Positions 2,099-52,674 of a stretch of 52,674 bases of DNA are shown in pieces (the first letter of the stretch is position 1; every line of letters begins with the position of its first letter). The notes under the pieces are model-generated. The model had not been told where the DNA came from. It did not search any database and worked only from the letters and a program-made list of their open reading frames with translations. Position numbers and translations under genes: made by a program. The stretch comes from a virus. The DNA lies in the IMG/VR virus record IMGVR_UViG_3300042691_014976, positions 1-52,674 of that record, one strand, 5' to 3'.

Positions 2099-2100
2099 AA

Positions 2101-2829: not shown

Positions 2830-3348
2830 TTATTTTAATATTTCTAATATTCGTCTAGCAACGTCTTTATCTTTGAATAATTCTTCAACACTAGTTGCTA
2901 TGGATTCGCTACAAGAACTTGCATAACAAGAAACCCTTATACTATCAGCATACTTAAAGTAATCGCCAATTTTATTATGTTTATAGATTGATTTTGGTGC
3001 TGAAATGCTTATTCTAAGATAATATCCGTGTCCGTTTTGCCCCCTATTTTTTGCGATTTTGATTTCAGAACCATAATCGTCTTCATTTTTTTCAACAAAG
3101 CCAACACCCATCAGTTCTGCACACAATCTATCGTAGGCATCTCTACCTTCTTGAATTGCCATTTCGTGAAAGTATTCATTTTGTTTAGTGAGGACACGAA
3201 TTGTCTCTTCCCATTCCTTCTTCTCATTTAAAAGGAATGGTATATCTATAAGCATCCCTTTAGAATTGCTAGATTGGTTGTTTGATTTGATAAACTCATT
3301 AGTTATGGAGTCAATCAATTTGATTTGATTTTCAGTTAATTTATTCAT
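2830..3348 (-). CDS. Hypothetical protein with MNKLTE start (172 aa)
   Basis: The ATG at 3348 is preceded by CCTAGAAATC. The product begins MNKLTENQIKLIDSITNEF, continues through a probable coiled-coil (residues ~45-75), and has a Ser/Cys-rich segment (YASSCSESIATSVEELF) near the C-terminus. The first codons and the start signal match those of the 82-aa gene just upstream at 3407-3655, so the gene starts appear duplicated. No family recognised. Confidence 0.7.
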   Translation of the reverse strand: MNKLTENQIKLIDSITNEFIKSNNQSSNSKGMLIDIPFLLNEKKEWEETIRVLTKQNEYFHEMAIQEGRDAYDRLCAELMGVGFVEKNEDDYGSEIKIAKNRGQNGHGYYLRISISAPKSIYKHNKIGDYFKYADSIRVSCYASSCSESIATSVEELFKDKDVARRILEILK

Positions 3349-9164: not shown

Positions 9165-9405
9165 GTTTATACTAGTCGACAAGGTTGTCGAGCAGAAGAC
9201 ATCCAAAAGTGGATTGATACTAAGTGGAGAGGAATACAAGGACATGCGCTACCACTACGGTAGCGTTGTTCAACATGGGATGAATGTCATAGGAATAGAA
9301 TCTGGAGACAAGATCATGTATGACAAGGTTCAGTCCTACGAGGTGGTGATCGATGGTAATAGGATGGTCGTCATTCAGGAGAAGGACGTTGTTTGCGTTC
9401 TCTAA
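9148..9405 (+). CDS. groES: GroES-type co-chaperonin (Cpn10)
   Basis: An 85-residue protein that would cap the phage GroEL ring. It has the Cpn10 order of elements: N-terminal strand (MKVLNKFILVDKV), a flexible mobile-loop-like segment with the hydrophobic clamp (KTSKSGLILSG), a GSVVQHG turn, and a C-terminal strand (VVIQEKDVVCVL). It is slightly shorter than bacterial GroES (about 97). The start overlaps the end of groEL, implying coupled translation and stoichiometric production. Its 3' end overlaps the convergent gene at 9371 by 35 bases. Confidence 0.93.
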   Translation: MKVLNKFILVDKVVEQKTSKSGLILSGEEYKDMRYHYGSVVQHGMNVIGIESGDKIMYDKVQSYEVVIDGNRMVVIQEKDVVCVL

Positions 9406-22845: not shown

Positions 22846-23478
22846 ATGGCATATATAGAACACAATTTTTTTCCTTTAAAAGTATTCGTAAGAAACGAGT
22901 ACATGTATCAATTTACTAAAGGGCATGGCGAGTTTACTCCTGCGGTAATAATGTCAGTAAGATGCATGCCTGGTCAGGCGGCATTGTTTCAAGTATTACT
23001 AGAGAATGGTGTGATGAGAGATAAGCTTCCATCACATGCGTTGCTTCTAGAGCCAAAGACTCCAGATCCAGATCTGCCATTTCATTATCTTCAGATATGG
23101 AACTGTTTCTCTTACAACTTTACTTTGCTTCATTTATCTTATGTATATGAGACTAAAGTTGACGTGTACATGAAGGATCGTAAGTGGTATTCTGGAGAAT
23201 ATTATGCTACAATAAATTGGGGATCAAATGATTTAAACACAGACTTGTCTTTAGCAGAAGATCCGCTAGAACATAAGAGTCATCATATTATTTTACTTGA
23301 TAATGGACAAATAGCTCTTCAACCAAACAATAGGATTAAATGGTCAGAGCCATCTTTTGTTACAAAACCATTTCCAGAAAAGCCAGATTACTTAGTAAAT
23401 AATCAATGTTTTAATTGTGAAAGCTATGAGAAATGGCATACTGAAGATTCTCAAGTAATGTTCTATGAAAATGAATGA
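22846..23478 (+). CDS. Conserved head-gene-cluster protein, unknown (210 aa)
   Basis: Starts MAYIEHNFFPLKVFVRNEYM and is rich in His, Tyr, Trp and Phe. A Cys pair lies near residue 190 (QCFNCESYE). Its position between portal and scaffold matches a gene of unknown role in crAss-like phages. It could be a head-associated or assembly protein; no motif proves that. Followed by a TAACTTTG box. Confidence 0.65.
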   Translation: MAYIEHNFFPLKVFVRNEYMYQFTKGHGEFTPAVIMSVRCMPGQAALFQVLLENGVMRDKLPSHALLLEPKTPDPDLPFHYLQIWNCFSYNFTLLHLSYVYETKVDVYMKDRKWYSGEYYATINWGSNDLNTDLSLAEDPLEHKSHHIILLDNGQIALQPNNRIKWSEPSFVTKPFPEKPDYLVNNQCFNCESYEKWHTEDSQVMFYENE

Positions 23479-36803: not shown

Positions 36804-37640
36804 ATGAACGCACCGTTAACCATTTCATACTCAGACGATGTTCAAGGATGGACATCCTTTTGGACATTCATGCCAGAGTATATGATATATGCAAATAATA
36901 ATTTTTATAGCTTCAAGGCTGGAAATCTTTATTTACATAATGACGCAGGTGCAGGTAGGACGGTATACTACCCAGGAACTGTGTTTCAAACATCGCCATT
37001 TTGTTCTATATCAACATTGTTTAACGACAATCCTTTTGAAGTTAAAATGTTTAATACTTTAGGAATACAGAGCACAATAGCATGGAACGCAACTGTATCA
37101 ACAGATATTATTGGTGGACAGATAGATGATACTTGGTTCTCATTAAAGGAGGGTGATTATTTTGGCAATATACGTAGAAATCAAAATCCATCTGGTGCAT
37201 TGTTAACAAACATGTCTCAGCTTGACGATACACTGTCCATAAGAATAATTGGTATTGGTGTAGTTTTAAACTCTGGACCAAATACTCCAGGTCCAATTGT
37301 AGGATATGTAAGGATTAATACATTTCCAGATCCAAATCTAATGGTGTTGGACATATCTGCACCAGATCAACTATATATATATAACGCAGCAAATGGTAAC
37401 CTTACATATGTTGGGGATGTGTACTCTGTTGATAATGTTTCTGCAGCAGAGCCTATTATTTACTTGAGCTCTATAGGAACATTGCCAAGTGCAGGTGACA
37501 ACATATTAGCTCTTAAAGGATCTGTCGCAGAGTCATATGGGGCAAGGGGTTATTTCATGGATGTAACCCTAACCCACAACAGCACATCATCTGTTGAATT
37601 ATTTCAGATCAGCTCGTCAGCATTCAAAAGTTTTATGTAA
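36804..37640 (+). CDS. Structural tail protein, crAss-like type (278 aa)
   Basis: Begins MNAPLTISYSDDVQGWTSFW and has FMPEYMIYANNNFYSFKAGN and LYLHNDAGAG. This YS(D/E)DV.GWTSFW...P E.M...NN.FYSFK.G.LY.HN pattern recurs in virion proteins of crAss-like phages and relatives. The remaining ~150 residues are beta-rich. Likely a tail or collar component attached to the muzzle or fibers. A separate promoter box precedes it. Confidence 0.75.
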   Translation: MNAPLTISYSDDVQGWTSFWTFMPEYMIYANNNFYSFKAGNLYLHNDAGAGRTVYYPGTVFQTSPFCSISTLFNDNPFEVKMFNTLGIQSTIAWNATVSTDIIGGQIDDTWFSLKEGDYFGNIRRNQNPSGALLTNMSQLDDTLSIRIIGIGVVLNSGPNTPGPIVGYVRINTFPDPNLMVLDISAPDQLYIYNAANGNLTYVGDVYSVDNVSAAEPIIYLSSIGTLPSAGDNILALKGSVAESYGARGYFMDVTLTHNSTSSVELFQISSSAFKSFM

Positions 37641-37649: not shown

Positions 37650-38048
37650 ATGGAAGTTAGGCAACTAGTCGATAACGATTATGACAAATTATGTCAGTGG
37701 TGGTCTGATTGGAGATGGTCCCCAATTTCAAGAGACTTTTTACCTGAGAATGGTACTGGTGGACTGATGGTGACTAAGGACGGTGTTGATATATGTGCTG
37801 GATTTGTGTACATGACAAACTCCAAGGTGGCATGGATTGAGTTTGTTGTATCAAACTTCCACTACAGAGAGAGCGACAGAAAGAGTGCCTTAGAGTTTCT
37901 TATACACTCTCTGACAGATATTTGTAAACAAAATGGTTTACTTTACGCATTCTCGACATTAAAGAATGAGTCTTTGATAAAAATGTACGAGGGATGTGGA
38001 TTCCAAAAAGGATCTACAAGAACAACTGAAATGGTAAAAATTTTATAA
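37650..38048 (+). CDS. GNAT-like acetyltransferase (132 aa)
   Basis: Product begins MEVRQLVDNDYDKLCQWWSD, then GGLMVTKDGVDICAGFVYMT, WIEFVVSNFHYRESDRKSAL and ALEFLIHSLTDICKQNG, with a C-terminal MYEGCGFQKGSTRTTEM. This follows the GNAT fold (N-terminal strand, two helices, central strands, a bulge before the cofactor helix, final GF strand). The glycine-rich acetyl-CoA loop is not the classical Q/RxxGxG/A, so activity is uncertain. Genes like this are common between tail and internal-protein genes of podoviruses, substrates unknown. Confidence 0.7.
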   Translation: MEVRQLVDNDYDKLCQWWSDWRWSPISRDFLPENGTGGLMVTKDGVDICAGFVYMTNSKVAWIEFVVSNFHYRESDRKSALEFLIHSLTDICKQNGLLYAFSTLKNESLIKMYEGCGFQKGSTRTTEMVKIL

Positions 38049-38049
38049 T

Positions 38050-38715
38050 ATGGCAGCAATAACAGGAACAATAGTAGCTTTAGGAGGGCTTGGCGTAAGT
38101 GCTGTTCAAGCTGTAAAACAGAACAAAGAAATGAAGAAGGCTGACGCTGCTTCAAAGCAAGCGAGCACAGCACTTCGATCAATAAAAGAGCAGAACGCAT
38201 TCAAGCAGCTTCAGGTACCTACATTGGGAACGGAATTGGCTCAACAGTCTGGGGCACAAAGAGATGCTCAGGCGATAAACATGTTGCAAGGTGCTGGAGC
38301 AGAGGGAGTTATTGGTGGTGTTGGGCAGTTGGCAATGGCTGGTGGCAACACAGATCTTCAGAACGCTGCTAGGCTTGACGATTTGAAGTTTCAGAGAGAT
38401 TCAATGGAGGCCGAGGCAGGACAAGGAATTGAGAGCAGACGATCTGTTAGAGAGTTCAATATTGGCATGGGAGAAAAGGCAGACGCAGAACTAAGAAGAG
38501 CTCAAGCTGAAGCAAATAGAAATGCAGCTATTCAGGGTATGTTTGGTTTTGCAGGTTCGGCACTTGAATCGGCTAGTAAAATTGCACCTTTATATGGTAA
38601 GAAAAAATCTAAAGCCCCAACTGCACCAGAGGCAAATACAGAATGGCAAAATGGTATTTTAGATAATATAGAAACATCTGCATTTAATCCATCTCAATTT
38701 TTTGTTAAAGAATAA
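38050..38715 (+). CDS. Internal virion protein candidate, Ala-rich (221 aa)
   Basis: Begins MAAITGTIVALGGLGVSAVQ, a hydrophobic glycine-rich N-terminus, then a long Ala/Gln-rich helical body (residues ~35-170). The C-terminal part ends SAFNPSQFFVKE. Small, helical, Ala-rich proteins placed just before very large internal proteins are typical ejection-channel components of podoviruses (T7 gp14 analogues by position). One base separates it from the acetyltransferase stop. Confidence 0.6.
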   Translation: MAAITGTIVALGGLGVSAVQAVKQNKEMKKADAASKQASTALRSIKEQNAFKQLQVPTLGTELAQQSGAQRDAQAINMLQGAGAEGVIGGVGQLAMAGGNTDLQNAARLDDLKFQRDSMEAEAGQGIESRRSVREFNIGMGEKADAELRRAQAEANRNAAIQGMFGFAGSALESASKIAPLYGKKKSKAPTAPEANTEWQNGILDNIETSAFNPSQFFVKE

Positions 38716-38728
38716 ATAATAAGTAACA

Positions 38729-40141
38729 ATGGCAAATCAATATTCAACATACGTACCAGTAGATGCAGTAGACTGGGGAACAGCAATCGGTGGTCTATAT
38801 AAAACAATAAACGCTATTGGCGAGTCGAGAAAAGCTGAGAAAGATCAACTAGACAAGCTGATGGGCGATGCCATCTTAGACATAAATAAAACAGAGGCAG
38901 TAAAGACACAGAGCCTTCAAGATTATGTTTTAGAGGGAGCGAATAACGGTAGAGAAGTTCTTAAATCTGCCAATCAAAGACTTAAGGCTGGTGAGATTAA
39001 CCCAAAGGAATATAAGGCAATCGTAAATAATGTAAACACGTACTGGTCTACAATGTCAAACAGCATGAAAAATTTCGATGCTACAAACCAAGAAATGTTA
39101 AAAAGACTTAGTCCAGGAGAGGATGGATCGCTGCCACAAGGATCAGAGTACGAACAATATTTAGCTGAGATACATGCTGGATTGGGAGACATTCGTAATT
39201 CAAAGTTCATATTTAATCCAAATAGTGGAGAGGGATACATGATGAAGATAGACCCTAAAACAGGGACTCCATCTAAAATTATAAGCAGCATGGTTCCAGC
39301 AAACCCAACCAATCTTGTTGATAATAGGGTAGACTTTGATGAACTTGTAACTAAGGCCACTAAAGGGTGGAAGCAGGCATACACTAATGAAGACGGAACA
39401 GTAACTATAAAGGATCCAACACAAAATCCATTTGTTGCAAACTCTATTATATCACTTACTACCAGCCTAACAAATACCCCTAGAAACCAAGCTCAAATTT
39501 TAGCTAGGTATAATGGATATGATTTCTATGAGTCTGAACAAGAAAAGAATAACATGATTCAAAGTGAAATTTCTAAAGAAAATGAATCTAGACAAATACA
39601 AGGCAAAAAGCCAATGACAGAAAGCGAGATAGAGAATTTTACTAATAATTTTGCTGAGACATTGATATATAGCAGTCTAGACGAGAATCAAACGTACCAG
39701 CCTAGGCTAACAGACGACCAACAAAAAATGGCGAAAACAATCATTACAGATCTTATAAAGTCAAAGCTTCCAATATCAAAGACACTAGATGAACCTTGGA
39801 GACCTCGCAAAGGCAGCGATATGTCTGTAGATAAAAAGGCATTGTCATCTGCCTCAGATGTTAGATCAATTTTGAGTGGTGACAATGCACTTCAAAATAT
39901 AAATGAAAGATACAAGTCAAAGGGTCTCAGATTAACTTGGGATAAGAGTAAGAAAAAATTTATAGTTTTTAAATTTGACGCTAACGCTAAAAATAGAAAT
40001 AGCTCAACAGGACAAGGAGCCTATGTTCCTACAGGTGACGAACTAAATTGGGACGCAACAGAATTCTATAAACTTGAAGGATTTGCTGGAGCAACCAGAG
40101 CAAAGTGGGACGAGGCAGTAGAAACTTTAAGAGGACAATAA
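38729..40141 (+). CDS. Internal virion protein candidate (470 aa)
   Basis: Begins MANQYSTYVPVDAVDWGTAI, a short hydrophobic start, followed by helical segments (AIVNNVNTYWSTMSNSMKNF) and a polar, Asn/Lys/Glu-rich body. By position it matches the second of three ejection proteins (T7 gp15 analogue in order only). No enzymatic motif recognised. It ends one base before the giant gene. Confidence 0.6.
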   Translation: MANQYSTYVPVDAVDWGTAIGGLYKTINAIGESRKAEKDQLDKLMGDAILDINKTEAVKTQSLQDYVLEGANNGREVLKSANQRLKAGEINPKEYKAIVNNVNTYWSTMSNSMKNFDATNQEMLKRLSPGEDGSLPQGSEYEQYLAEIHAGLGDIRNSKFIFNPNSGEGYMMKIDPKTGTPSKIISSMVPANPTNLVDNRVDFDELVTKATKGWKQAYTNEDGTVTIKDPTQNPFVANSIISLTTSLTNTPRNQAQILARYNGYDFYESEQEKNNMIQSEISKENESRQIQGKKPMTESEIENFTNNFAETLIYSSLDENQTYQPRLTDDQQKMAKTIITDLIKSKLPISKTLDEPWRPRKGSDMSVDKKALSSASDVRSILSGDNALQNINERYKSKGLRLTWDKSKKKFIVFKFDANAKNRNSSTGQGAYVPTGDELNWDATEFYKLEGFAGATRAKWDEAVETLRGQ

Positions 40142-40142
40142 A

Positions 40143-43100
40143 ATGGCAGAACTAGAGGAAGACTTATCACAATCATTGGACAACCAGTCTCCTGGTAATG
40201 GAGACGGTATCTATACATATCCTGGAAAAAAAAATACATACTACCAAAAGAAGGATGGTAATTGGTATAAGAAAGTTGGAAACTCTGACTATCAAAAGAT
40301 TCAATCTGGAGACGTTGAAAGTAGGGTAGAGCTTCTTGAAAAGAACGCCGTTCCTTTTGAGATAAAATCTAATATAATACCAAAGCTTCCAAAAAACATT
40401 GCTGGTGCAGATCTTAGTGTAAACGAAATCGTTGAAAAAGCTAAAGATGTTAAGCTGCCTCCAAAGATCAAGATAGAGAAGGAAAACGATGTATTTGTAT
40501 GGAAGGAGTACGATCCAGAGTCTCCAGAAGCAGACGACTCTATGTACAAGGTAATTACAAATCCTAAGAGAGTAAACGAGCTAAACAAGAAGTACAAGAA
40601 TAAAGCATCTACGAGTCCACTTGAGATGATTTATACTGGATTTCCTAACAGGGAAGACACAGAGTATAAGGTAAGTAGTGACAATTTATGGCAGAAAAAA
40701 GAGCCAGGTTCTGAATACTTCTATACAGTATCAAATCCAGAGTCAATAAAATATTTGAACAATCAGTTCAAACAAAATGCCAACATACTTGATGAGAAAA
40801 AATCAAAAGAGATTGTTGGACAAAACAACTACATAAGAGACTTTAACGCAAGGCTGACAAATATAAATTCAGATCTAATAGGTAAGGATACAGACGATGT
40901 ATTATCTAACTTACAGTTTTCATTTCCTGAGTTTAAATTTGAGAGAAACGGATCTTCAGGTCTAAGGGTATACAATCCTAAAGATAAAAACGATACAAAC
41001 ATATCACTAGACAACTGGTTTGGTAGTGATGATAAACTAAACGCTGAGAAGTTAAGGGCATTCTTAAAGGAGAACGTGCTGTCTAATACCAGTTCATCAT
41101 ATAATAGTTGGATTCAATCTCAAGCAGTTTTAGAAGGAAAAATATCAAAGGCTGTATTAAAAGAGGACAATGGCGTAGTAACTAAAGATATTGCTGATGC
41201 TACAAATGTTGATCGTACAGTATTAAACGAACAAGTTAGAAGAGACCTAGGGGCAATGTCAAATGTATTGTTCCCTAAAGAGGCAGAGAAAATAAAAACT
41301 GCCGAAAAACAGTTTATTAATTCGTATTCAGACGCAATCAAGAATACTTATTCAAGGGTAAAAGACAAGTCTGAAGACGAGAAGAATGCTGCATTTGCTG
41401 CCATTAAAACAGAGGACATAAATGACAGAATTGTTTTTGCTGTCAATAAATTTGGGGACGAAGTAAAGGACAAGACCAATGACTTTGTTAAGGAACAAAA
41501 AGCATTTAATGCTTACATACAAGACATAAATGAAAAGGTAAAGTCTGGGGAGATTTCTAAGGAAGACTATGATGCAAACTACAAGAAGTATATTAACGGT
41601 AAGGTAGAAGAGCTGAACTTAAAGTCATCAGATCTACAGACAGACTTAAAAACTTTAAACTCTTCACAGTTTGGTGTTAATAAGTCTATAGCTGGAAACT
41701 ATTTGTTAAACGAACAGCAAGGGACATTTGTTGGTGGTTTAACAAGGAGCGTTGTTCAAGGTGTTCTTGACCTTCCGTTCTACGTTGCAGGAGCAACTAA
41801 AAAAGAAAAGAAAGAATTTGTTGATGGAATAATTAATTCTGGTACTACCGAGGAGTACATGAACTCAGACGAAAGATGGGACATAACAAAGGCAGCATTC
41901 CAAATGACAAGATCATTGTCAGCAATGGCAGCAGGGGCAGCGTTGGGCGGACCAGCAGGGACAATTGGTAGATATGCTACATTGTACGCAATGTCTTACA
42001 ATGAGATGAAGGACGACCTTGATGCCGTAGATATAAGCAACGAGGACAAGGTGCTTATGTCATCTGCATATGGACTTGTTGGATCATTTTTAGAGAATTT
42101 CGGTATAGGATATCTTTTGGGCAAGTCTGCACTGAAAGTTGGAGCCACAAACTGGATACTCAAAACAGCCTTCTCTGGTATTCCAAAGGGAGCCAGCAAG
42201 GAATTCATAGAGGCTCAGATAATGAATAGCACAAAGATGTATATTTCCAAGATGGCTGTAACAGGTGCTGGAAGTTCTCTTGTTGAAGGTGCTACAGAGG
42301 CAAGTCAAGCAGCTGTTCAAGTCGGTATCAAAGAGGTATACGATGAAATGAAAAAGACTGACTACTTTAACAATAAAAGTTCTTGGCAAATATTTGGAGA
42401 TATTGCATATGAAGGATACATGGGAGCACTTGGTGCTGGTATCGTTGAGACAGTGCAGCAGTCAGGAGAGGTCCTTAATAGAGGTAAAAACGCATTTGTT
42501 AACAAGGATCAAATGAAGCTGTTGATAAAGTCAGCAAAGCTGAACGGCATTGATCAGGCATTACTTTCAAACTTAAAGGCAAGCATACTGAATGGAAAGA
42601 TTTCAACAGTCGAGGCAAAAGAGATTGTCAGATCGTTCCAAGATATAAAAGGAAAGATAAACTCTATGCCTGATGAAATGTCTGTAGACAAGAAGTCTGT
42701 GGCACTAGACCTAATGGTTGAGAGAGACAACTTAAATAAAAAGATTGAGGGCAAGGAGCCTACCCTTGTTGTAAAAGAAAAGGCCAGGATAGATGAGATT
42801 AATAATCAATTAAAAAATGTAGACAATGCCGTACAAGAGCCAAGCACAGAGGAAATTCTTCAACGCCAACCAGAAACAACTGGAGAAGCAGGGGGTGAAC
42901 GTGGAGGAGTGGAACAAGTCGTCCAAGGGGAAGAAGTTGCCCAAGAAGGTGGCGAGCAAGCCACTGCCCAAAAAGAAATAACTCCTGGATCTACTGCTAA
43001 AATAGCTGGTGTAGATATTGTATATCCTACAGAATCACAGGCCGAAGAAAGAAAAGCATTTAGATCTACAACTGAATACGTTGAGAATGCATCTAAAGAT

Positions 43101-46100
43101 CTTCCATTAGAGGACGTTGAGTCACTATCAAAAGAACTTGAAGGAGATTTTGGCTTACTAACTGCTGATAACCCAATGGCTCAACCTCTTACCGAGGAAG
43201 AGAACAAACAGCTTAGTCAAAAGGCTGAGGAGTGGTTAATATCAAGAGGTTACAAGCCTAGACGTGTTACTGGTAAGTACGAACAGGCAGAGAACTCTTT
43301 CTTTGTTCCAAACCTAACAAGGCAAGATGCGATTGAGTTTGCTAAAGAGTTCAACCAAGACTCTGTAGCACACTCTGACGGCATGGTATACCAGAACGGA
43401 TCAATAAATCCAAGGGTAAAACAAAATGACGACCTAAGCTTTACAGAGGGATATAGCCCTGACTCTAACTTGGTTTCTGTAGTAAATACAAAGGATGGAC
43501 TAAAGACATTCTCTATTGGATATAACTTTGAAGAGAAGGTCAATCCTGAGCCACAACCTACTGTAGTTAAAGAAACTGCTACACCTACATTTGTTCCAGA
43601 GACCAATAATACTCTTGACGAGAGAATAAAAAATGAGCCAGATGTCAAGAGAAAGAAAATATTAAATGCCGTTAAAAAAGTATTGACAGCATTACCAAGT
43701 TCTAGGATTATTCTGCATAACAACACAGAGTCGTTTGTTGACGGTGTAGCAAAGTCTGCAAATATCACTAAAGAGAAAGCTAAAAAGAAAGGTGCTGAAT
43801 CTATAAATGGGGCATACGTAAATGGTGACATCCATATAAATCTTGAGAAGGCCGAAATGGGAACAATATTCCATGAGGCATTTCACTATATATTGGAAAA
43901 GAAAGGTATTGAGTCTGGAACTATTTTACAAATGGCAGAAGGACTAAAATCAATTATATCTGACAAAAAAATAAAGGCTAAACTAGATAAATTTGTAAAA
44001 CAATACAAAGAAAGCGAAATGGCAGAGGAGTATTTGTCAGAGCTTGGGGCTATTATGTCCGAGGCACAGAAAGAACTTACAACAACCAAGTGGCAACAGT
44101 TCAAAACATTGATAAATAACATCGGTAAAAAACTTGGAATTCCTGTTGTTTTTGCTGCTGCTGCGACCGCACAAGACGCTGTTAACTTTATGAACTCAAT
44201 GGCTGGCAATTTAATTGTTGGAGAAGAGATTCAAAACATTGTTACTGATGGATTTCAAACAAATATAGTTTCTGATAAAATAAAAGCTCAGAAATCTGTA
44301 AAAGTAAATGCAGATCAAAAATTAACATTTGTAAAACAATCTGATATAATAGATATAAAATCTTTAATTGATGATATTGTATCAAAAAATCAAAATGTAT
44401 GGTTTTGGGTTGCTGATCAATTAGGTAGAGGTATTTATTTTGATAGTGTAATAAATGGAGAGCATTATCTTGATGCTGGACCTTCCTATGCTCTTGATCC
44501 AGAGAATAGATCAAAAGGTATAATATGGGCATCTGGGGCAAAACCTACTACATTAACTAAGAACATAGACAAGAGTGATTATATTTTTATAGTTAGTGGT
44601 TCTCCGCAGTCATCAAAATTATTTAATAAAAAAGTATCTGGAATAGTTAGATCAAGAATAGAAAGTAAAGTTGATTTTAATAGTTTTAAAAATAACATAT
44701 TAAACTCAAAACCAACAAAATCAATTTTAGATATTTTAAACAAGTACAATTCATATGATGAATTGTTTAATGGTGCAGATAGAAAGGCTTTCATAATTGC
44801 AATAAACGAACAGCAAAACAAAAATACTCCATTAAAAAAATCATTAGAATCATATGATGCATTTGTAGATCTTAATGAATTAAGAGATGGATTCTACAAG
44901 GATAATGACTTTAAACTTGGCGATGTAATGCTAATTTTAAAGCCAGAAAAAGTAGGAGGTAAATCAAAACATTCAACATATGAAACTGATATTATAGGAT
45001 CAGTAGTTGGTGTTCCAGATATGATAATTAATTCTTACGATTTAATGACTGATGAAGTAAGAAATAAATATAAAGACAATTTAGCAAGAGTACAACAGCA
45101 ACAAGTAGTTGCTCCATATGGTATTGGTGTAAAGAAAATTGCACAAATAAAAGCTCAAAAAACAGAGCCTGTTGCTGGAAACAAACTATTTAACGAGCCA
45201 CTAAGAGATGCCGAGACAATAGCCAAGTCGTACATGAAGTCTATCGGAATGGAATACGTCCCTGTGGAAAAGATAACTAAGCTAGACGAAAACCTATCCA
45301 AAAGAATAGCCGATGCATACGACAAAATGAAAAACGATCCTAACGATCCAGATGTCAAGAAGGCATACGAGGCTATGGCCAAGGAGACGTTAGATCAGTA
45401 TGATGCCATTGTATCAAAGGGATACAAAGTAGAGATAAACAATGACGAGCCATACTCTTCTTCTGAGGATATGATAAGTGATCTAAAGGACAACAAGAGA
45501 ATGAAGATATTCTCTACAGAGTCTGGATTTGGAGATGAGCCTATCACAGAGGAGCAGAGAAAAGAAAATGTATTGTTAACAGACTCTGGAAGAAAGGATG
45601 CTAACGGAGAGACTCTATTAGTCAATGATGTGTTTAGATTTGTCCATGACTTCTTTGGTCACGCTAAACTAGGAAATAGTTTTGGTCCAATAGGAGAGGA
45701 AAATGCTTGGAGAGTTCACGCTGTCATGTATTCTCCAGAGGCCAGAAAGGCTATGACATCTGAAACAAGAGGTCAGAACAGTTGGGTTAATTTTAGCGGA
45801 GTTAATGACGCTGTATTTAAGAAGAGAGACAAGGCAAGAGAGCTTCGTAAACAAGGTAAGATAGCAGAGGCAGACCAAATGGTCGGAGAGGTATACGAAG
45901 ATATGAAATTTGCCGATCAAAAGGTAGGATTGCTTCCAGAGTTTGCCGTTGAAGAAGGGTCTCCATCAAAAATTAAGGCACAGAAACAATCCAAGGATGA
46001 TGCTATTCAAAGTGCCAAGGACATACACGAAAAGTCATTTAAAAGATTTAAAGACGAAAAAAGAGCCATAGCAAACGCTATCAATAATCTTGAAAAGTCA

Positions 46101-49100
46101 GACTGGTATAAAAATGCTGACGACACTCAGAGAGAGCAGGCAGTAGTAGAGGTAAAGCAATCTCTTGGCGTAAAAATAAAGAGAGCTCCATCTGTTGCCA
46201 AAGTAATGGGCAATACTAAGCAGACTGCTGTTGTTTCAGATATAGCTGCTGCAATTCGTGATCAGGTAAAGCTACAAGCACGATCATCAAGAGAGACAGC
46301 AAAGACTATTAACGAGAAAAGAAAAGAGCTTGGAGAGGCTATCAAGCAGGTTGTAAATAGCTACAAAGGTAAGATAACTGACAAACAGCTAAACGCCATC
46401 AACAAAAGGATTGCAAACGTGAATCTATTCAACCAAGAGATGGTGGACAGAGTAGTAGACTACGTTGAAAAGGTGATGAACAATGCAGACTACGCAAGAA
46501 AACTAAGCGATGCATTTGCAGAAAGAAAGGCCATCAAAAGAATGATGAAGTCTGGAAACCAAGCCGAAACAGTTGCCATTGCTAGAGAATTCACAATCAT
46601 CGATCCATCAATGGTTGAAGACATTGACGCATACCTAGATATTGCATCAAAGATAAGAGCAAGCGTAAAGACATCTAGAAAATTAAAAGGAGCAGTCTCT
46701 CTAAAGGAGATGGCAAACTTCCAAGATGTGTACGGATACATAAAGCCAGAGATCGATAGACAAGAGCAAATGATGAAAAATATGCTTTTGGCCGAGTATA
46801 AAGATTTAACAGATAATGGAACGATCTCAAATACAATGAGCCTAAGCGATATAAATAAAATCATCAAGCTAGTTGTCGACAATCAAGACGAAGAAAAAGT
46901 TATTGCAAACGAAGAGAAGGCAAGAGACTTTTTAAGTCAAAAACTAGAGTCTATAAAAAGTACTATTTTTCATATTTTAAAATATGGAACACAACCATTT
47001 ACTGGAGAATCTGTGGTCATGAGCGACAGAATTAGGTCAATCGTTAATAATATCTTAAAGTCAGATCTCAACGAGATGTCTACAAAACAAATGATTCAAA
47101 TGGCAGACTCATTAAATAACTTTATTGAGAACGGAGCCATTGGTGGACTTGAAGATGCATTTAAAATAATTGAAGGCCAAAGAAACATTAAGACCCTAGT
47201 TGAAAAAGGAGTAAAGGCCAGACCACTTAAATTGTATTTTTCTAAAGAATTAGGAGAGATTGCTTCGTATGAAGTGACGTTTCTTACAGAACTATTCAAT
47301 AGAATGTTTGTAGGTGTAACAAAAGGTTTAGACGTGCTAGAAAAGTCTGGATTTGCAGATGTAATTCTTGGGGCTAACAAGGCAAGAAGAGCAGTAAAAG
47401 ATATACAAGAAAGATACGTACAGCAATTTAAAAATATAAAAAACTTTTTTGATGTTGAGCAAGCATACGAGAGAAGTACACTCTCATTCTTGTATAGAAA
47501 TGTTATCGGATCAGAATTAGAGATGAGTCAAGAGTTTAATCGCAGGGTAGATATGTTATTAGAGAGTCTTGAGACACTTAAAAATGGCGACTCGAAAGAA
47601 CGAAAGATGGCTAAAGTGTACGAGAGTTTATTTGAAAAGCTAGATATTAAGTCTAGAGACCTTGAAAAAATAACATCCAACGCAACTCCACACAATATGG
47701 AAGCTGTTAACTGGTGGATAAATGAGTGGTCATCTCACTATGACAATCTATCAGAGGTGTCAAAATCTGTGTACAATATGATACTAGGAAAAGACTTCAA
47801 CTTTACTCCAGACAGATATAAATTAACGGCAGAAGGATCTGCAAATAAGACTATATCATCTGATCTTGTTGAAAGAAACTCATCATTTCTAATAAATACA
47901 GATTCGTACTACACAGACAAAAAGGAGTCTGGAGTTATGATCGCATCGGTTAGACCTGAAGTTCTTCCAAAAGGAAGATACGTAAGCCTTGACTTTGATG
48001 TTAATAACATCGAATCACTAACTGGTGCCCTTGTAGATATAGAAACTGCTGGAGCAATTAGACAGGTAGACGCTTTCTTTAATTCTAATGAAATAAAAAA
48101 ATTGATTCCAACGTTTGAGGATAGAAACATACTCATTCCAAGAATAAATAGATACATAAGAAGGGCAAAAAATAAACTTGTAGTTCCTCGTGACGTATTT
48201 AGAAAAATTGACAACGCTGCAAATACAATCGCAGCAGTTGGATCAACATTGGCCATGGGGGGAATCTTCGCGTCAATAAAACAAACACTGCCTGTTGCGA
48301 TTAGTACAGCTATAAATACAGGATCAAACTTTAAACTATATGCTGGTAAATCATTTAACGATTGGTTAAATACTACTGGAGCAACTGTATCAAATCGTGG
48401 CCAAGAATCTGTGACTGCTGTTGAGAGTGCCAACAAGAAAATACAATCGTTCAATGGTAACTTTGACAAGGCAGTTCAAACAGTTAAGGGCTTAACACAG
48501 TGGCAACTAAAAACATTCTTGTCTAGGCCAGATGTCTTGGTGGCTAGGTCAGGATTTAAGTCTTACTACACCCAGTACATGAAGAAGAACACAAGTCTCT
48601 TTAAAAACGAAAGTATTGACTGGTCAACATTAAATGAAAAGATAAAATCATTAGGGCTAGAAGAGGTAAATAAGAAAGCAATAATATATGCAGATGCAAT
48701 GGTATCTAGGCAGCAGAATGGATCTGACGAAAGGCTTGCTGGTGAGCTACTTACGTCTGAAGACTCTTTAAGAAAGTTGCTAAGAAAAGTAGTATTTCCA
48801 TTTGCATCGTTTAGTATAAATCAAAGAGCTAGACTTGTTGCTGACATAAACACACTATATGTAAACTATAAGAATGTGTCTTCAGAAGATAGGGCCATCG
48901 CAATGAAGTCTATCGCAGGAACACTTTCTGAGCAGGCATCATTCCAAATGATTAATTTTGCACTAGGAATGCTACTATACGAAGCGGCTGCTGCACTTTC
49001 AGACAACGATGAAGATGACGAGGAATGGAAAAAAAGAATGCAAAACGCAACCAAGTATCCACTAAAATCATTTGTCGCAGATCTAGCATCTCCAAATCCA

Positions 49101-49880
49101 ATAGCAGATGACGCTGTCATATGGACAGCAGATAAGCTACTTGATATGTTTGGTAAACCTAAAAAGTCTGAGATAGATCAAGCCGTAGCTGATGAAAACG
49201 AAATGTTGTTACTAATGGACAAAGATCCAATGACAGAAAAACAAGAAAGAAATTTCAGAGAAGAGTTTGTAAAAGAAAACACGTATCAACTGTCATATAA
49301 CTTTACAAATGGAGAAGAAGGAAAGTTCGGTATGATTTCAATAGCTCCTGATCAGTATGCTAAAATAATGAAAAACTATGAGATGGTAGAAAATGGCACA
49401 TTTACAAATGAGTACATGGGCAAAGAGACGACTAAGTACTTGACAGATAAGGACAAAGCTATAGCCAAGTCTGTGTTTTATGCACTAGAGATGCCATTTA
49501 CCACTGGAGCTGGTCTAAAAGAGATGGGTCAAGTTGCCAACAAGACATACTCAATCATTAAGAAGAGAGGACTAACAGAAGATCAGTACGAGATATATAA
49601 ATCATTCAAAAAAGAATACAAGAAAGAGCCAAACACTTACGAATTAAAAATGATTAAGTCTGGAAAGTCATATGAAAATATTTCTGACGAAATAAACTTT
49701 ATCGATCAGCAAGGAGGGTTAAATACCAAGCAAGGTATAGAGTACTCAAAGCTATTTGACAAGACAGGATTTGTAACAAAAGATCAGTTCGAAAAAATTT
49801 CTAAGGGAATGAAGTACGAGGACGTAATAAAAACTTCAAAGAAGACAGGTATTACTGAGCCACCATTATTTCAAGACTAA
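40143..49880 (+). CDS. Giant multidomain virion protein with zincin motif (3245 aa)
   Basis: Probably packaged and delivered into the host. N-terminal repeats with Trp-Lys cores lie near residues 23-72, 113-155 and 176-217. Hydrophobic Gly/Ala-rich segments lie at ~593-625. A zincin metallopeptidase motif HEAFH is at 1244-1248. IKAQK occurs at 1380, 1669 and 1944, flanking an AT-rich module and a module with HDFFGHA (1835-1841) and ETRGQN (1874-1879). Long helical regions follow (1950-2500). A C-terminal hydrophobic stretch lies near 2936-2955. The size and multidomain plan match phage polyvalent or internal virion proteins. No RNA polymerase motifs were found. Ends at an overlapping convergent stop. 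Confidence 0.8.
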   Translation: MAELEEDLSQSLDNQSPGNGDGIYTYPGKKNTYYQKKDGNWYKKVGNSDYQKIQSGDVESRVELLEKNAVPFEIKSNIIPKLPKNIAGADLSVNEIVEKAKDVKLPPKIKIEKENDVFVWKEYDPESPEADDSMYKVITNPKRVNELNKKYKNKASTSPLEMIYTGFPNREDTEYKVSSDNLWQKKEPGSEYFYTVSNPESIKYLNNQFKQNANILDEKKSKEIVGQNNYIRDFNARLTNINSDLIGKDTDDVLSNLQFSFPEFKFERNGSSGLRVYNPKDKNDTNISLDNWFGSDDKLNAEKLRAFLKENVLSNTSSSYNSWIQSQAVLEGKISKAVLKEDNGVVTKDIADATNVDRTVLNEQVRRDLGAMSNVLFPKEAEKIKTAEKQFINSYSDAIKNTYSRVKDKSEDEKNAAFAAIKTEDINDRIVFAVNKFGDEVKDKTNDFVKEQKAFNAYIQDINEKVKSGEISKEDYDANYKKYINGKVEELNLKSSDLQTDLKTLNSSQFGVNKSIAGNYLLNEQQGTFVGGLTRSVVQGVLDLPFYVAGATKKEKKEFVDGIINSGTTEEYMNSDERWDITKAAFQMTRSLSAMAAGAALGGPAGTIGRYATLYAMSYNEMKDDLDAVDISNEDKVLMSSAYGLVGSFLENFGIGYLLGKSALKVGATNWILKTAFSGIPKGASKEFIEAQIMNSTKMYISKMAVTGAGSSLVEGATEASQAAVQVGIKEVYDEMKKTDYFNNKSSWQIFGDIAYEGYMGALGAGIVETVQQSGEVLNRGKNAFVNKDQMKLLIKSAKLNGIDQALLSNLKASILNGKISTVEAKEIVRSFQDIKGKINSMPDEMSVDKKSVALDLMVERDNLNKKIEGKEPTLVVKEKARIDEINNQLKNVDNAVQEPSTEEILQRQPETTGEAGGERGGVEQVVQGEEVAQEGGEQATAQKEITPGSTAKIAGVDIVYPTESQAEERKAFRSTTEYVENASKDLPLEDVESLSKELEGDFGLLTADNPMAQPLTEEENKQLSQKAEEWLISRGYKPRRVTGKYEQAENSFFVPNLTRQDAIEFAKEFNQDSVAHSDGMVYQNGSINPRVKQNDDLSFTEGYSPDSNLVSVVNTKDGLKTFSIGYNFEEKVNPEPQPTVVKETATPTFVPETNNTLDERIKNEPDVKRKKILNAVKKVLTALPSSRIILHNNTESFVDGVAKSANITKEKAKKKGAESINGAYVNGDIHINLEKAEMGTIFHEAFHYILEKKGIESGTILQMAEGLKSIISDKKIKAKLDKFVKQYKESEMAEEYLSELGAIMSEAQKELTTTKWQQFKTLINNIGKKLGIPVVFAAAATAQDAVNFMNSMAGNLIVGEEIQNIVTDGFQTNIVSDKIKAQKSVKVNADQKLTFVKQSDIIDIKSLIDDIVSKNQNVWFWVADQLGRGIYFDSVINGEHYLDAGPSYALDPENRSKGIIWASGAKPTTLTKNIDKSDYIFIVSGSPQSSKLFNKKVSGIVRSRIESKVDFNSFKNNILNSKPTKSILDILNKYNSYDELFNGADRKAFIIAINEQQNKNTPLKKSLESYDAFVDLNELRDGFYKDNDFKLGDVMLILKPEKVGGKSKHSTYETDIIGSVVGVPDMIINSYDLMTDEVRNKYKDNLARVQQQQVVAPYGIGVKKIAQIKAQKTEPVAGNKLFNEPLRDAETIAKSYMKSIGMEYVPVEKITKLDENLSKRIADAYDKMKNDPNDPDVKKAYEAMAKETLDQYDAIVSKGYKVEINNDEPYSSSEDMISDLKDNKRMKIFSTESGFGDEPITEEQRKENVLLTDSGRKDANGETLLVNDVFRFVHDFFGHAKLGNSFGPIGEENAWRVHAVMYSPEARKAMTSETRGQNSWVNFSGVNDAVFKKRDKARELRKQGKIAEADQMVGEVYEDMKFADQKVGLLPEFAVEEGSPSKIKAQKQSKDDAIQSAKDIHEKSFKRFKDEKRAIANAINNLEKSDWYKNADDTQREQAVVEVKQSLGVKIKRAPSVAKVMGNTKQTAVVSDIAAAIRDQVKLQARSSRETAKTINEKRKELGEAIKQVVNSYKGKITDKQLNAINKRIANVNLFNQEMVDRVVDYVEKVMNNADYARKLSDAFAERKAIKRMMKSGNQAETVAIAREFTIIDPSMVEDIDAYLDIASKIRASVKTSRKLKGAVSLKEMANFQDVYGYIKPEIDRQEQMMKNMLLAEYKDLTDNGTISNTMSLSDINKIIKLVVDNQDEEKVIANEEKARDFLSQKLESIKSTIFHILKYGTQPFTGESVVMSDRIRSIVNNILKSDLNEMSTKQMIQMADSLNNFIENGAIGGLEDAFKIIEGQRNIKTLVEKGVKARPLKLYFSKELGEIASYEVTFLTELFNRMFVGVTKGLDVLEKSGFADVILGANKARRAVKDIQERYVQQFKNIKNFFDVEQAYERSTLSFLYRNVIGSELEMSQEFNRRVDMLLESLETLKNGDSKERKMAKVYESLFEKLDIKSRDLEKITSNATPHNMEAVNWWINEWSSHYDNLSEVSKSVYNMILGKDFNFTPDRYKLTAEGSANKTISSDLVERNSSFLINTDSYYTDKKESGVMIASVRPEVLPKGRYVSLDFDVNNIESLTGALVDIETAGAIRQVDAFFNSNEIKKLIPTFEDRNILIPRINRYIRRAKNKLVVPRDVFRKIDNAANTIAAVGSTLAMGGIFASIKQTLPVAISTAINTGSNFKLYAGKSFNDWLNTTGATVSNRGQESVTAVESANKKIQSFNGNFDKAVQTVKGLTQWQLKTFLSRPDVLVARSGFKSYYTQYMKKNTSLFKNESIDWSTLNEKIKSLGLEEVNKKAIIYADAMVSRQQNGSDERLAGELLTSEDSLRKLLRKVVFPFASFSINQRARLVADINTLYVNYKNVSSEDRAIAMKSIAGTLSEQASFQMINFALGMLLYEAAAALSDNDEDDEEWKKRMQNATKYPLKSFVADLASPNPIADDAVIWTADKLLDMFGKPKKSEIDQAVADENEMLLLMDKDPMTEKQERNFREEFVKENTYQLSYNFTNGEEGKFGMISIAPDQYAKIMKNYEMVENGTFTNEYMGKETTKYLTDKDKAIAKSVFYALEMPFTTGAGLKEMGQVANKTYSIIKKRGLTEDQYEIYKSFKKEYKKEPNTYELKMIKSGKSYENISDEINFIDQQGGLNTKQGIEYSKLFDKTGFVTKDQFEKISKGMKYEDVIKTSKKTGITEPPLFQD

Positions 49881-50986
49881 AATATGTGTGTCAGCCTTGC
49901 CACCTGACCATTTAATGGGTGGTGAATAAAGCCCTCTACAGCTTTAGGTGAATGCTGATATCCATTCCTGTGATGCCATCCGTCAGCAGACGATGGGCTT
50001 CTAAGTGTCTCAATATTTACAGACATTATGTCTTTGGATGACTTGTGATGGATATGGTGTCCGTATATATATCTGTGAGTACATTCATGCCACTCACTAG
50101 ATGCCTCGTGTGCCATTAGCAGTGGAAGGTTATCAATCTTAGCACCGTCCATGTGTGTTGATCCTATTAGATTTCTTCCGTACACTGTGTACTTTCGATG
50201 CTTCATGTCATTGTCAAATGTAACATTTTTGCACCTGCTGAACCATGCCTCTACGCACTGTAACAACATAAATCCAGACATGAAATCATGATTGCTTGGA
50301 TTAAAAACAACGTGAACATCTGCCAGCGACATCAGTGTCTCAATTATATCAATCAAAAGTTTCTTGGCAGTTACAAAGTTATCGTACCACATGCCATCTG
50401 TATCTTGTGGAGTGCCAGATGTTGTCTGTCTGCGAGGATTATCGATGTGAAGTATGTCGTTGCCAGCTATAAATATTATCTGATTTATGTTGTATCCGTT
50501 GGTCCTGTTAACGATGCCATGCATGCCGTCTAAGACTCTTTTTACAGCGATCTGCTGGTTGTATTCCTCTCCAGTCTCAAAAGACGATGAGAGCTTACCA
50601 ATGTGGATATCTGCTGGATCAAATACTAGGCAGTGTGGATCGTCAGCAATAGCTCTGTTAATCTTTTTGTATGACGGAGCCCATGTCTTAATCTCAGATA
50701 TTAGCTCAGACTTGAACTCCTCTAGATTTACATCGTTACCGCCTGCAACGTTGATGCTGTAGTGCTTGCCCTTGTACCAGTAGTTTTTAATTTTTGATGC
50801 GTCTATGCCAACACTCTCACACTCATCCAGAACACCTGAGTTAAGGTCGTACTTTCTTATAGCCCTTCTTATTGTTCCTCTGTGTCTTTCTATGTCGGCA
50901 GACTCTCCAAAAATTTTTCTAGCTATTTCAGTTTTGTTTTTTACTCCAGACTTATAGAGACTTATGATTTCATTGTAATGACTCAT
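49877..50986 (-). CDS. Calcineurin-like metallophosphoesterase with N-terminal HTH (369 aa)
   Basis: The first ~45 residues form a helix-turn-helix (ISLYKSGVKNKTEIARKIF...RRAIRKYDL). The catalytic domain carries the metallophosphoesterase motifs in order: DPADIHIGK (D-x-H), FIAGNDILH (GND), NPSNHD (replacing GNHD) and YGHHIHH (GHxH). It may act as a phosphodiesterase or nuclease on DNA or nucleotides in replication or repair. The start overlaps the 55-aa upstream gene. Its stop overlaps that of the giant gene on the other strand. A TTTG-N19-TATTTTTG promoter lies 200 bases upstream. Confidence 0.88.
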   Translation of the reverse strand: MSHYNEIISLYKSGVKNKTEIARKIFGESADIERHRGTIRRAIRKYDLNSGVLDECESVGIDASKIKNYWYKGKHYSINVAGGNDVNLEEFKSELISEIKTWAPSYKKINRAIADDPHCLVFDPADIHIGKLSSSFETGEEYNQQIAVKRVLDGMHGIVNRTNGYNINQIIFIAGNDILHIDNPRRQTTSGTPQDTDGMWYDNFVTAKKLLIDIIETLMSLADVHVVFNPSNHDFMSGFMLLQCVEAWFSRCKNVTFDNDMKHRKYTVYGRNLIGSTHMDGAKIDNLPLLMAHEASSEWHECTHRYIYGHHIHHKSSKDIMSVNIETLRSPSSADGWHHRNGYQHSPKAVEGFIHHPLNGQVARLTHIF

Positions 50987-51137
50987 GATCTTTAGGGATA
51001 TCCTTAAGGATTTTTATTAAATTTAAGACGCTTTTATTTAATTCTTCGGTGTCGTTGTCCATTAACGACTCGTAGATAGAGTCGGTCAGATCATTTATAT
51101 CTGCCATTAATATATTTATATAGTTAACCTTGCTCAT
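50970..51137 (-). CDS. Small acidic helical protein (55 aa)
   Basis: ATG at 51137 to TGA at 50970-50972, overlapping the first 17 bases of the phosphoesterase gene. Product begins MSKVNYINILMADINDLTDS and is acidic and helical. It follows a good promoter by about 50 bases and is coupled to the phosphoesterase, so it may be a partner of that enzyme. No family recognised. Confidence 0.65.
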   Translation of the reverse strand: MSKVNYINILMADINDLTDSIYESLMDNDTEELNKSVLNLIKILKDIPKDHESLQ

Positions 51138-51185
51138 AAATTATTAATTCAATGCGAGGCGAAGTTATATAATTATTATTAAAAA

Positions 51186-51216
51186 CAAAAATAATAAAGA
51201 TATTTTTTTGAACAAA
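51186..51216 (-). promoter_or_regulatory. Leftward Bacteroidota-type promoter
   Basis: On the minus strand TTTG (51216-51213) is followed after 19 bases by TATTTTTG (51193-51186), an exact match to the consensus TTTG-N19-TAnnTTTG. It would transcribe the 55-aa gene (ATG at 51137) and the phosphoesterase. Confidence 0.75.
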
Positions 51217-51225
51217 GTGGTGTTA

Positions 51226-51507
51226 CTAAAGATCAGCCAGCCATTCGTTGAACACGTTGCCCATGTTCACAACCTCTGTGTAGAAGTCAATTACATCCTC
51301 ATCGTTCTCAGATGCAACCTTGCTATACACACTGTCCGTCATTCTAGACACCTCATCAATGAAGTCGTTTCCAGATTTCTTTATCCCTCTCTTGTAAAGG
51401 TTTGGATAGTCATGCTTCACGTCCTCCATGAAGTCCATTAACACTGGTAAAATACCTACCAAGCAGGCCAGTTTTTTCTCTCTCGAGATAGATTTGTTGT
51501 TCGTCAT
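51226..51507 (-). CDS. Helical hypothetical protein (93 aa)
   Basis: Starts MTNNKSISREKKLACLVGIL and continues PVLMDFMEDVKHDYPNLYKR; predicted all-helical. It overlaps the C-terminal part of the preceding 119-aa gene by 98 bases in a different frame, which is unusual. A later start at MDFMED would remove most of the overlap. Located in the nucleic-acid gene block; function unknown. Confidence 0.6.
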   Translation of the reverse strand: MTNNKSISREKKLACLVGILPVLMDFMEDVKHDYPNLYKRGIKKSGNDFIDEVSRMTDSVYSKVASENDEDVIDFYTEVVNMGNVFNEWLADL

Positions 51508-51769
51508 AACTTAGATCATTAAAATTAAAATTAAAATTACTATTTAAAAGTTCTTCCTCACTGTAGTAAGGTTCAGTTTTTTGTCCAAATATCGCAACGC
51601 TAGGCTTGTTTTTAAAGAACATGTGGAGCCTATACTTCTCAACGTTCATTATCTGCTCTATATCGTAAAGGCTCAATCCATCAGACAACAACTTGTTTAT
51701 CAATTCATAGTTGTCGTATATGTACAATGCCCTACTAACAGATTTCTTGTATCTCAGCTTTAACTCCAT
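51410..51769 (-). CDS. Possible DNA-binding protein (119 aa)
   Basis: Begins MELKLRYKKSVSRALYIYDN and has YELINKLLSDGLSLYDIEQI followed by MNVEKYRLHMFFKNKPS, a helix-turn-helix-like arrangement. The middle is AT-rich and encodes FNFNFNDLSYDEQQ. The start overlaps the VRR-NUC gene by 35 bases. It may bind DNA together with the neighbouring nuclease, by position. Fold call is tentative. Confidence 0.6.
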   Translation of the reverse strand: MELKLRYKKSVSRALYIYDNYELINKLLSDGLSLYDIEQIMNVEKYRLHMFFKNKPSVAIFGQKTEPYYSEEELLNSNFNFNFNDLSYDEQQIYLEREKTGLLGRYFTSVNGLHGGREA

Positions 51770-51977
51770 GATTATTTAATTCTTTTATTCTGTACAACTG
51801 TAGCGGTGATGCCTTACCACCTGGCCTCTTTACCTCTATGAACTCAACGTCAGAGTCCTTGGGTATCGCAATAAGGTCAGGTATGCCTGGCTTGTTAGTC
51901 TGGATCAACTTAATAACATAGTATCCTTGAGACTCAAGCTTCTTTATTATCTTCGTTTGTATCTGTTGCTCTGTCAT
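51735..51977 (-). CDS. VRR-NUC domain nuclease (80 aa)
   Basis: A minimal PD-(D/E)XK nuclease. Product starts MTEQQIQTKIIKKLESQGYY and carries GIPDLIAIPKDSDVEFIEVK, with catalytic PD (residues ~32-33), Glu and Lys in EVKRPGG, then an SPLQLYRIKELNNHG helix. VRR-NUC proteins act in phage recombination and repair, often as Holliday-junction or flap nucleases. It overlaps the next gene downstream, and upstream 44 bases overlap the 89-aa gene. Full length for a stand-alone phage VRR-NUC. Confidence 0.92.
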   Translation of the reverse strand: MTEQQIQTKIIKKLESQGYYVIKLIQTNKPGIPDLIAIPKDSDVEFIEVKRPGGKASPLQLYRIKELNNHGVKAEIQEIC

Positions 51978-52203
51978 TAAAGTTGCAGTAATACTTGTTT
52001 AGGTAATTAACTACCTTACCAAGGTCTGCAAATCTAACGAAATTTAATTCAGAATCCAACACCCTAACCTCTTTTATCTTAATAACACCATCCTCAAAGA
52101 AGTACTTGCTTATCTCAAGAACGCTCTTCTCTGGTGTCTCTAGATCAAATGTATCGACAAGTAACCTAATCATTGGGTCGTTTAATACCTTCAAACTAGA
52201 CAA
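51934..52203 (-). CDS. Hypothetical replication-block protein (89 aa)
   Basis: I use a TTG start at 52203 (SSLKVLNDPMIRLLVDTFDL) because it overlaps the stop of the 38-aa gene by eight bases, which suggests coupling. An ATG at 52176 would shorten it by nine residues. The product has a FEDGVIKIKEVRVLDSELNF strand-rich middle and an acidic tail. No family recognised. Confidence 0.6.
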   Translation of the reverse strand: MSSLKVLNDPMIRLLVDTFDLETPEKSVLEISKYFFEDGVIKIKEVRVLDSELNFVRFADLGKVVNYLNKYYCNFNDRATDTNEDNKEA

Positions 52204-52312
52204 ACTTAATTATGACGATACGCTTGAACCAACCGATGAACATATACTTGCCAGTGTCGGTCTTGTTGATACCAATAAATGGTGTTAAAAAAAACATTTC
52301 ATTCTCTTTCAT
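52196..52312 (-). CDS. Very small hypothetical protein (38 aa)
   Basis: ATG at 52312 to TAG at 52196-52198, filling the gap between the helicase stop and the next gene. Product MKENEMFFLTPFIGINKTDT... ends with a basic hydrophobic stretch (FKRIVIIKFV) that could contact a membrane. Supported mainly by tight packing on the minus strand. Confidence 0.5.
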   Translation of the reverse strand: MKENEMFFLTPFIGINKTDTGKYMFIGWFKRIVIIKFV

Positions 52313-52315
52313 AGC

Positions 52316-52674
52316 TTACTTATTTATTTGTTTATAATCCTTTTTAAATACATTTAACGTATAACTTTTCTTACTCTTTACAGCCTTGTATATCTTGTCC
52401 TCTATGCTGTCAACACTAAAGATCCAGTATATCTTGTTGTTCAAACGATTGATCGTTGTCATCCTATCTCTTGCCTGCCAGTAGCTTACGGCACTGAAGT
52501 CTATCGTATAGAACACAAGGTAGTCAGCATTTTTCAACGATATACCCTCACGACCAGACACGATTTGTAAGGCAATAGCCTTAAAATTACCAGAGTCAAA
52601 TTCATCTAACTCTGTAGTAAGATCATCACCAAAGACCTGAGTCAGTGCGTTTAGCTCCTCCTTGAACTTGTAGA
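52316..52674 (-). CDS. C-terminal part of a DEAD/SNF2-type helicase (partial)
   Basis: The frame is open at the right edge; 118 codons are visible. VSGREGISLKNADYLVFYTI and DFSAVSYWQARDRMTT correspond to helicase motifs V and VI (Q..R..R with GREG). The product ends FKKDYKQINK. It is the last piece of a superfamily 2 DNA helicase used in phage replication or recombination. It directly precedes the 38-aa gene (four bases). Confidence 0.88.
   Translation of the reverse strand, partial: YKFKEELNALTQVFGDDLTTELDEFDSGNFKAIALQIVSGREGISLKNADYLVFYTIDFSAVSYWQARDRMTTINRLNNKIYWIFSVDSIEDKIYKAVKSKKSYTLNVFKKDYKQINK

Follow-up and report, generated by a model that had tools for sequence, protein, structure and literature searches.

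A giant phage protein carries exchangeable putative effector modules on a conserved chassis, with a recurring peptide at module borders

The window analysed here spans an entire IMG/VR record (IMGVR_UViG_3300042691_014976; 52,674 bp) from a phage whose hosts are Flavobacteria-like bacteria. Its terminase and portal proteins match phage families, and the portal matches phages of Flavobacterium (Elemovirus), Cellulophaga, Maribacter and Tenacibaculum. The final gene of the structural block (P0001; 40143..49880, plus strand) begins with ATG and encodes 3245 amino acids without an internal stop, in agreement with the single frame that had been described when only the letters of the genome and its open reading frames were inspected (hereafter, the sequence-only reading). 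It is preceded by a 221-aa gene (38050..38715, +), which matches phrog_13764 (virion structural protein), and then by a 470-aa gene (38729..40141, +), for which no family match above cut-off was found; we refer to these genes as candidate cargo 1 and candidate cargo 2. On its other side, a minus-strand gene for a phage DNA repair exonuclease (phrog_704; 49877-50986) overlaps the last 4 bp of the giant gene.

An equal gene order is present in Elemovirus (gp20, gp19 and gp18, the last of 3694 aa) and in Cellulophaga phage phi40:1 (gp099, gp100 and gp101), wherein the 221-aa and 470-aa genes are syntenic with gp099 and gp100, respectively. According to GenBank notes, all three phi40:1 proteins were detected in virions by MS/MS. 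The two upstream genes had been proposed to encode ejected proteins, and their order does match the pair that precedes the last structural gene in the Cellulophaga and Elemovirus relatives. The phi40:1 protein gp101 (Pervagoviridae, Callevirus) occupies the same slot as the giant protein, at the end of the structural block, and carries a virion MS/MS note, but it is only 1691 aa long, lacks both an HExxH motif and the junction motif described below, and has no detectable sequence similarity to the giant protein. Because this similarity is lacking, the virion location of the giant protein rests on slot evidence, not on homology. The earlier suggestion that the protein is packaged thus gains support from synteny with an MS/MS-detected protein, but not from detectable homology to that protein. 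For this phage itself virion proteomics is lacking, and no virion mass spectrometry for Elemovirus was found in a related paper. Homology of the chassis regions to phi40:1 gp101, to the giant protein of a Manatee Spring phage and to Panino gp69 was sought and not detected.

The Elemovirus protein gp18 (Flavobacterium phage elemoE_6-9C, YP_010109083) lies in the same slot; residues 946 to 1378 of the giant protein are shared with it at 44% identity, and weak, remote, collinear profile signals connect it to both chassis ends. It differs in carrying another payload and in missing IKAQK at the corresponding borders. These comparisons bear on the possibility that the giant protein is a late intracellular protein that is encoded beside structural genes without ever being packaged. 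The existence of one of its modules (module C) as solo genes fits such a role, yet the slot is collinear with that of a protein detected in phi40:1 virions, and gp18, which is annotated as a structural protein, holds the same slot with the same DUF3293-zincin stretch. We therefore regard an unpackaged protein as improbable.

The slot also resembles that of crAss001 gp45-gp50, which are large virion cargo proteins encoded just after the muzzle gene and are in part related to RNA polymerases (PMC10172136). On the basis of this position, a virion RNA polymerase of the N4 or crAss type could be envisioned. The giant protein lacks a polymerase signature, however, and neither an RNA polymerase family nor any other single known fold was matched across the protein in Pfam, PHROGs or NCBIfam; a match of that kind was what the sequence-only reading had named as a way in which its proposal could fail. 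The polymerase explanation is therefore largely refuted and retains only a very slight chance of being correct. The protein encoded at positions 36804-37640, upstream of the two candidate cargo genes, is 278 aa long and scores 31 bits (cut-off 27) for the C-terminal domain of the crAss muzzle.

Scans of viral contigs yielded more than 20 relatives of the giant protein. An N-terminal chassis (aa 1-905; 40143..42857, +), for which conservation is strongest at about residues 450-905, and a C-terminal chassis (aa 1944-3245; 45972..49877, +), which is conserved to about residue 3234, are common to most relatives of sufficient length. Identities range from 19 to 99% for the former (in L008, L010-L013, L027 and others) and from 30 to 97% for the latter, and the region between them varies among relatives. 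The giant protein is a polyvalent protein built from modules, with a conserved chassis that comprises residues 1-905 and 1944-3234. Its payload consists, in order, of a DUF3293 module (946-1150), a zincin (1160-1364), module B (1385-1668) and module C (1674-1943), such that several biochemically unrelated domains are combined in one polypeptide. Other payloads found in relatives include DUF7178 (L008, L019, L025 and L027), LPD23 (L011) and ddrB-ParB (L024 and L028), of which the latter two are Pfam domains named for polyvalent proteins. The giant protein itself contains no domain of the kinds named for polyvalent proteins (such as LPD, ddrB-ParB, ART or MuF), but such domains are present on the same chassis in its relatives. 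The proposal of a multi-effector protein is supported by this collection of domains and by those of the relatives; the swapping of modules, the IKAQK junctions and the SAM-lyase-like and HDxFGH modules had gone unnoticed. An LPD38-type C-terminus was also considered and rejected, as 14 chassis sequences gave no Pfam match; the C-terminal chassis belongs to no Pfam family. The two hydrophobic patches that had been reported are present but weak, wherein the best 19-residue Kyte-Doolittle means are 1.36 at residue 2934 and 0.99 near residue 591, both below the mean of 1.6 that is usual for membrane segments.

The first payload module (aa 946-1150; 42978..43592, +) matches DUF3293 (PF11697) with 48.7 bits. 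When this domain is scanned in isolation, it also matches the S-AdoMet_lyase family (PF23780) with 28.5 bits, just above the cut-off of 28, although this second match is unreported in a scan of the whole protein at E values up to 1. Both profiles are matched by seven of seven members. The phage SAM lyases T3 SAMase and Svi3-3 share a conserved Gly-x-Tyr, a Glu and a Gln, of which the first two can be matched by G1044-x-Y1046 and E1050 of the module, whereas the placement of the Gln is uncertain and the Gly-x-Tyr and the Glu stand closer together than they do in T3 and Svi3-3. Because both profiles match, but the spacing is shorter and the Gln is uncertain, a SAM-lyase-like role predicted on these grounds is likely but not proven. 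The module resembles the known enzymes in exceeding the Pfam cut-off, and differs from them in its spacing, in its better match to DUF3293 and in its residence within a giant and probably virion-borne protein, where theirs is a free early protein. An hhalign comparison with T3 SAMase aligns 13 columns only. SAM lyases have a trimeric PII-like ferredoxin fold; the model of the DUF3293 region is of low confidence, and the fold search with it returned no match. Only chance matches to designed repeat proteins were obtained when the DUF3293 profile was compared with the PDB, and the term DUF3293 was not found in the literature searched.

The zincin metallopeptidase domain (aa 1160-1364; 43620..44234, +) is conserved in about 20 relatives. 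The sequence-only reading placed HEAFH at residues 1244-1248 (43872..43886, +), which is exact; this is the sole HExxH in the protein, where about 0.005 would be expected from composition. Residues H1244, E1245, H1248, E1296 and E1300 are invariant in an alignment of 20 sequences (A6), and thus fit an HExxH motif with a downstream Glu ligand that is kept in the aligned zincin-bearing relatives. A fold search with a model of the DUF3293-zincin-B region, in which the zincin portion is of moderate quality, did not recognise a zincin and gave no meaningful solved counterpart. The fold is therefore assigned from the motif and its conservation.

Module B (aa 1385-1668; 44295..45146, +) is of unknown function. 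Module C (aa 1674-1943; 45162..45971, +), an HDxFGH domain, corresponds to phrog_3170 and was found at 448 viral loci. At the loci examined, the proteins that host it almost always exceed 1,200 aa, and many carry HExxH. Its motif HDFFGH (aa 1835-1840; 45645..45662, +) forms a candidate metal site with E1874, and H1835, D1836, H1840 and E1874 are invariant in 52 sequences. A first combined alignment of modules B and C (A5) was discarded because the rows with module B only were misaligned. AlphaFold2 predicts a structure for module C with a mean pLDDT of 89.6, for which the matches in a viral structure library are large polyvalent proteins, ART-PolyVal-like proteins and proteins with head-morphogenesis domains. 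The list of PDB matches is dominated by Trp, Phe and Tyr hydroxylases, but with E values of at least 0.18 and TM scores of about 0.15 (best 0.18). Module C shares with the hydroxylases of PF00351 a helix that carries H-[DE]-x-x-G-H and, further on, a T-x-E, and its residues H1835, H1840 and E1874 conform to the HxxxxH...E pattern of iron ligands in an alignment with bacterial PheH (A9). With bacterial PheH, however, hhalign aligns only the 11 columns of the HDFFGH helix, and no PF00351 match exists in the genome or in the module C family. The reading that module C belongs to the aromatic amino acid hydroxylases was rejected, as the likeness is at the level of motif only and the profile and fold tests were not met. 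Module C is probably a metal-binding enzyme domain whose reaction is unknown.

Some bacterial genomes carry module C as a solo gene (283-294 aa) situated between a gene for an SAH-hydrolase-like NAD-binding protein and a DUF3293 gene. This operon was observed in Aquimarina and in another genome from its family, as well as in an Ulvibacter MAG and in Enterovibrio. A bacterium of the BD1-7 clade has a single 430-aa ORF that joins module C to DUF3293, behind the same SAH-hydrolase-like first gene (operon loci L142, L143:4820-7154, L144:4805-7141, L148/L149 and L154). Because these bacterial operons and the fusion pair module C with DUF3293, the two payload modules belong together elsewhere as well, and the operon setting suggests SAM or adenosyl metabolism. 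The phage relatives do not always carry both. Module C is rare in the bacterial groups concerned (2/251 and 1/248 genomes searched), and the operon, the function of which is unknown, possibly represents a SAM-related pathway or a mobile accessory system. A separate solo copy of module C, in Actinomadura, immediately precedes a gene for a class V aminotransferase (L151:5881-7978), which is not the DUF3293-operon context.

Payloads are swapped between near-identical phages. DNA of the relative L008 is 94.7% identical to the window over positions 38047-44209 and 98.2% identical over 45145-52674, and the stretch from 44210 to 45144 (+) lacks any DNA similarity between flanks that are otherwise 95-98% identical. 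L008 carries a different module B in this place, and the right break lies at residue 1668, adjoining the IKAQK at 1669. A more extensive exchange distinguishes L012 from L028, whose chassis regions are 94.7% and 90.5% identical but whose entire payloads differ, wherein L028 has a ddrB-ParB payload and no zincin motif. The copies of module C in L022 and L023 reach 85-86% identity despite chassis regions that are only 36-37% identical, and in L114 and L115 the module precedes the zincin instead of following module B. Within L008 aa 1150-1300, the zincin is 91% identical to that of L011 but 73% identical to that of the window, even though the gene on its flanks matches the window at about 95%, which places a recombination break within or next to the zincin.

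These exchanges also bear on whether the giant protein might be a structural protein of the inner core, a channel or a tape-measure-like protein, in which the enzymatic domains are mere relics. Such an explanation would accommodate the fact that the chassis makes up two thirds of the protein, the mild hydrophobic stretches and the crAss-muzzle-like part in the genome. It is difficult to reconcile with the invariance, over many sequences, of residues that are putatively catalytic in the zincin and in module C, and with the exchange of payload modules on a chassis that is retained. We consider it quite improbable.

The peptide IKAQK occurs three times in the giant protein, at the borders of modules B and C (junction 1, aa 1380-1384, 44280..44294; junction 2, aa 1669-1673, 45147..45161; junction 3, aa 1944-1948, 45972..45986; all +), where 0.008 occurrences would be expected, and it is the sole 5-mer present in triplicate. 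None lies between DUF3293 and the zincin. Across 26 family members, the pattern [ILVF]KxQK was found 44 times versus 8.4 expected, and 31 of the 44 fall within junction zones, drawn from landmarks, that constitute about 3% of the length. Several of those remaining are located at further borders (for example, L025:2100 and L045:2521). Both pattern and zones were defined only once the motif had been noticed at such places, so this count is descriptive and not an independent test, and the 26 sequences are mutually related. No instance was found in 12 other proteins of the window that were checked. The junction motif is present in 18 of the 22 members that bear a zincin and in none of the three that do not (Fisher p 0.015, uncorrected for kinship). 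In both predicted structures, the motifs are located within or next to segments of low confidence, which judging from these models are probably disordered. Whether the variable residue of IKxQK has co-evolved with the zincin is confounded by kinship, in that an effect of the zincin could not be separated from one of lineage.

Two uses of this peptide are compatible with an ejected polyvalent protein. It may be cleaved by the protein's own zincin, an inference to which we assign a little less than an even chance. Alternatively, IKxQK may be a neutral hinge or a recombination seam, with the zincin attacking host proteins, and this remains a possibility to be taken seriously even though we hold it with limited confidence. 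Modules do recombine at or near IKxQK seams, four zincin-bearing relatives (L014, L043, L075 and L114) lack the motif, and some zincin-bearing polyvalent proteins of plasmids are transferred at full length (PMC5512222). A seam that acts at the DNA level, however, predicts neither the different 15-bp codings of the three copies nor the unrelated flanks of different junctions. Within one protein, moreover, the variable third residue (A, K or F) is mostly identical among the copies, and the absence of the motif from the three relatives without a zincin likewise speaks against the hinge or seam.

The explanation that we favour overall, with somewhat better than even confidence, is that of an ejected polyvalent effector that releases modules B and C through its zincin and lowers SAM. 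The part of this explanation that holds the protein to be an ejected multi-effector protein is quite likely correct, although packaging and delivery to the host are inferred from synteny only. The giant protein would be loaded into the virion and would enter the host with the DNA, where the conserved N- and C-terminal chassis regions would serve packaging and ejection and the central payload would be a series of interchangeable cassettes (the SAM-lyase-like DUF3293, the zincin, module B and module C). In the head or in the host, the zincin may cut the IKAQK peptides near residues 1380, 1669 and 1944, which would free B and C as proteins of about 31-32 kDa and leave the N-terminal chassis, the SAM lyase and the zincin joined. 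The SAM-lyase-like domain would lower host SAM at entry, as SAM lyases do by cleaving it to MTA and homoserine lactone, and SAM-dependent restriction would be blunted. Neither this reaction nor the depletion itself has been demonstrated, and SAM depletion remains a tentative inference that could nearly as well be right as wrong. Module C probably works in the same SAM or adenosyl chemistry, given its link to DUF3293 in bacterial operons; this role is also inferred. A more specific version is doubtful when all of its parts are taken jointly, namely that of a virion-borne, self-cleaving polyprotein in which [ILVF]KxQK is both the zincin cut site and the border for effector exchange, SAM is destroyed before phage genes are expressed, and DUF3293 and module C constitute a two-part system that also exists in bacterial operons.

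The ejected polyvalent effector that we favour shares many characteristics with the polyvalent proteins described by Iyer et al. 2017 (PMC5512222), including its huge multidomain form, its location beside virion genes, its zincin hub, its unrelated effectors and its mosaic composition. It differs in having a fixed chassis with payload slots, IKxQK borders and a module C that has no Pfam family; SAMase, DUF3293 and hydroxylase are absent from the text of PMC5512222. Processing of polyvalent proteins by their own zincins was proposed there, and the passages of that paper concerned with cleavage and processing do not name a cleavage site. As far as could be checked against those passages, the candidate cleavage sites are new. 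Because the peptide marks the borders and is absent there in three members without a zincin, the zincin-processing idea can now be tested simply with mutants. Our analysis suggests a form of anti-restriction by SAM removal that is delivered in the virion, and, by way of bacterial operons, connects module C, a very common but unnamed phage domain, with DUF3293 and with SAM chemistry.

Two further features of the genome were observed. A gene matching phrog_3704 ('ferredoxin', 214 bits) is located at positions 22846-23478, between the portal gene and the next structural genes, in a slot that is empty in Elemovirus and in the Manatee Spring relative. Adjacent ORFs of 521 and 85 aa (7599-9164 and 9148-9405) have the relative position of GroEL and GroES in MW202828, a correspondence of position only.
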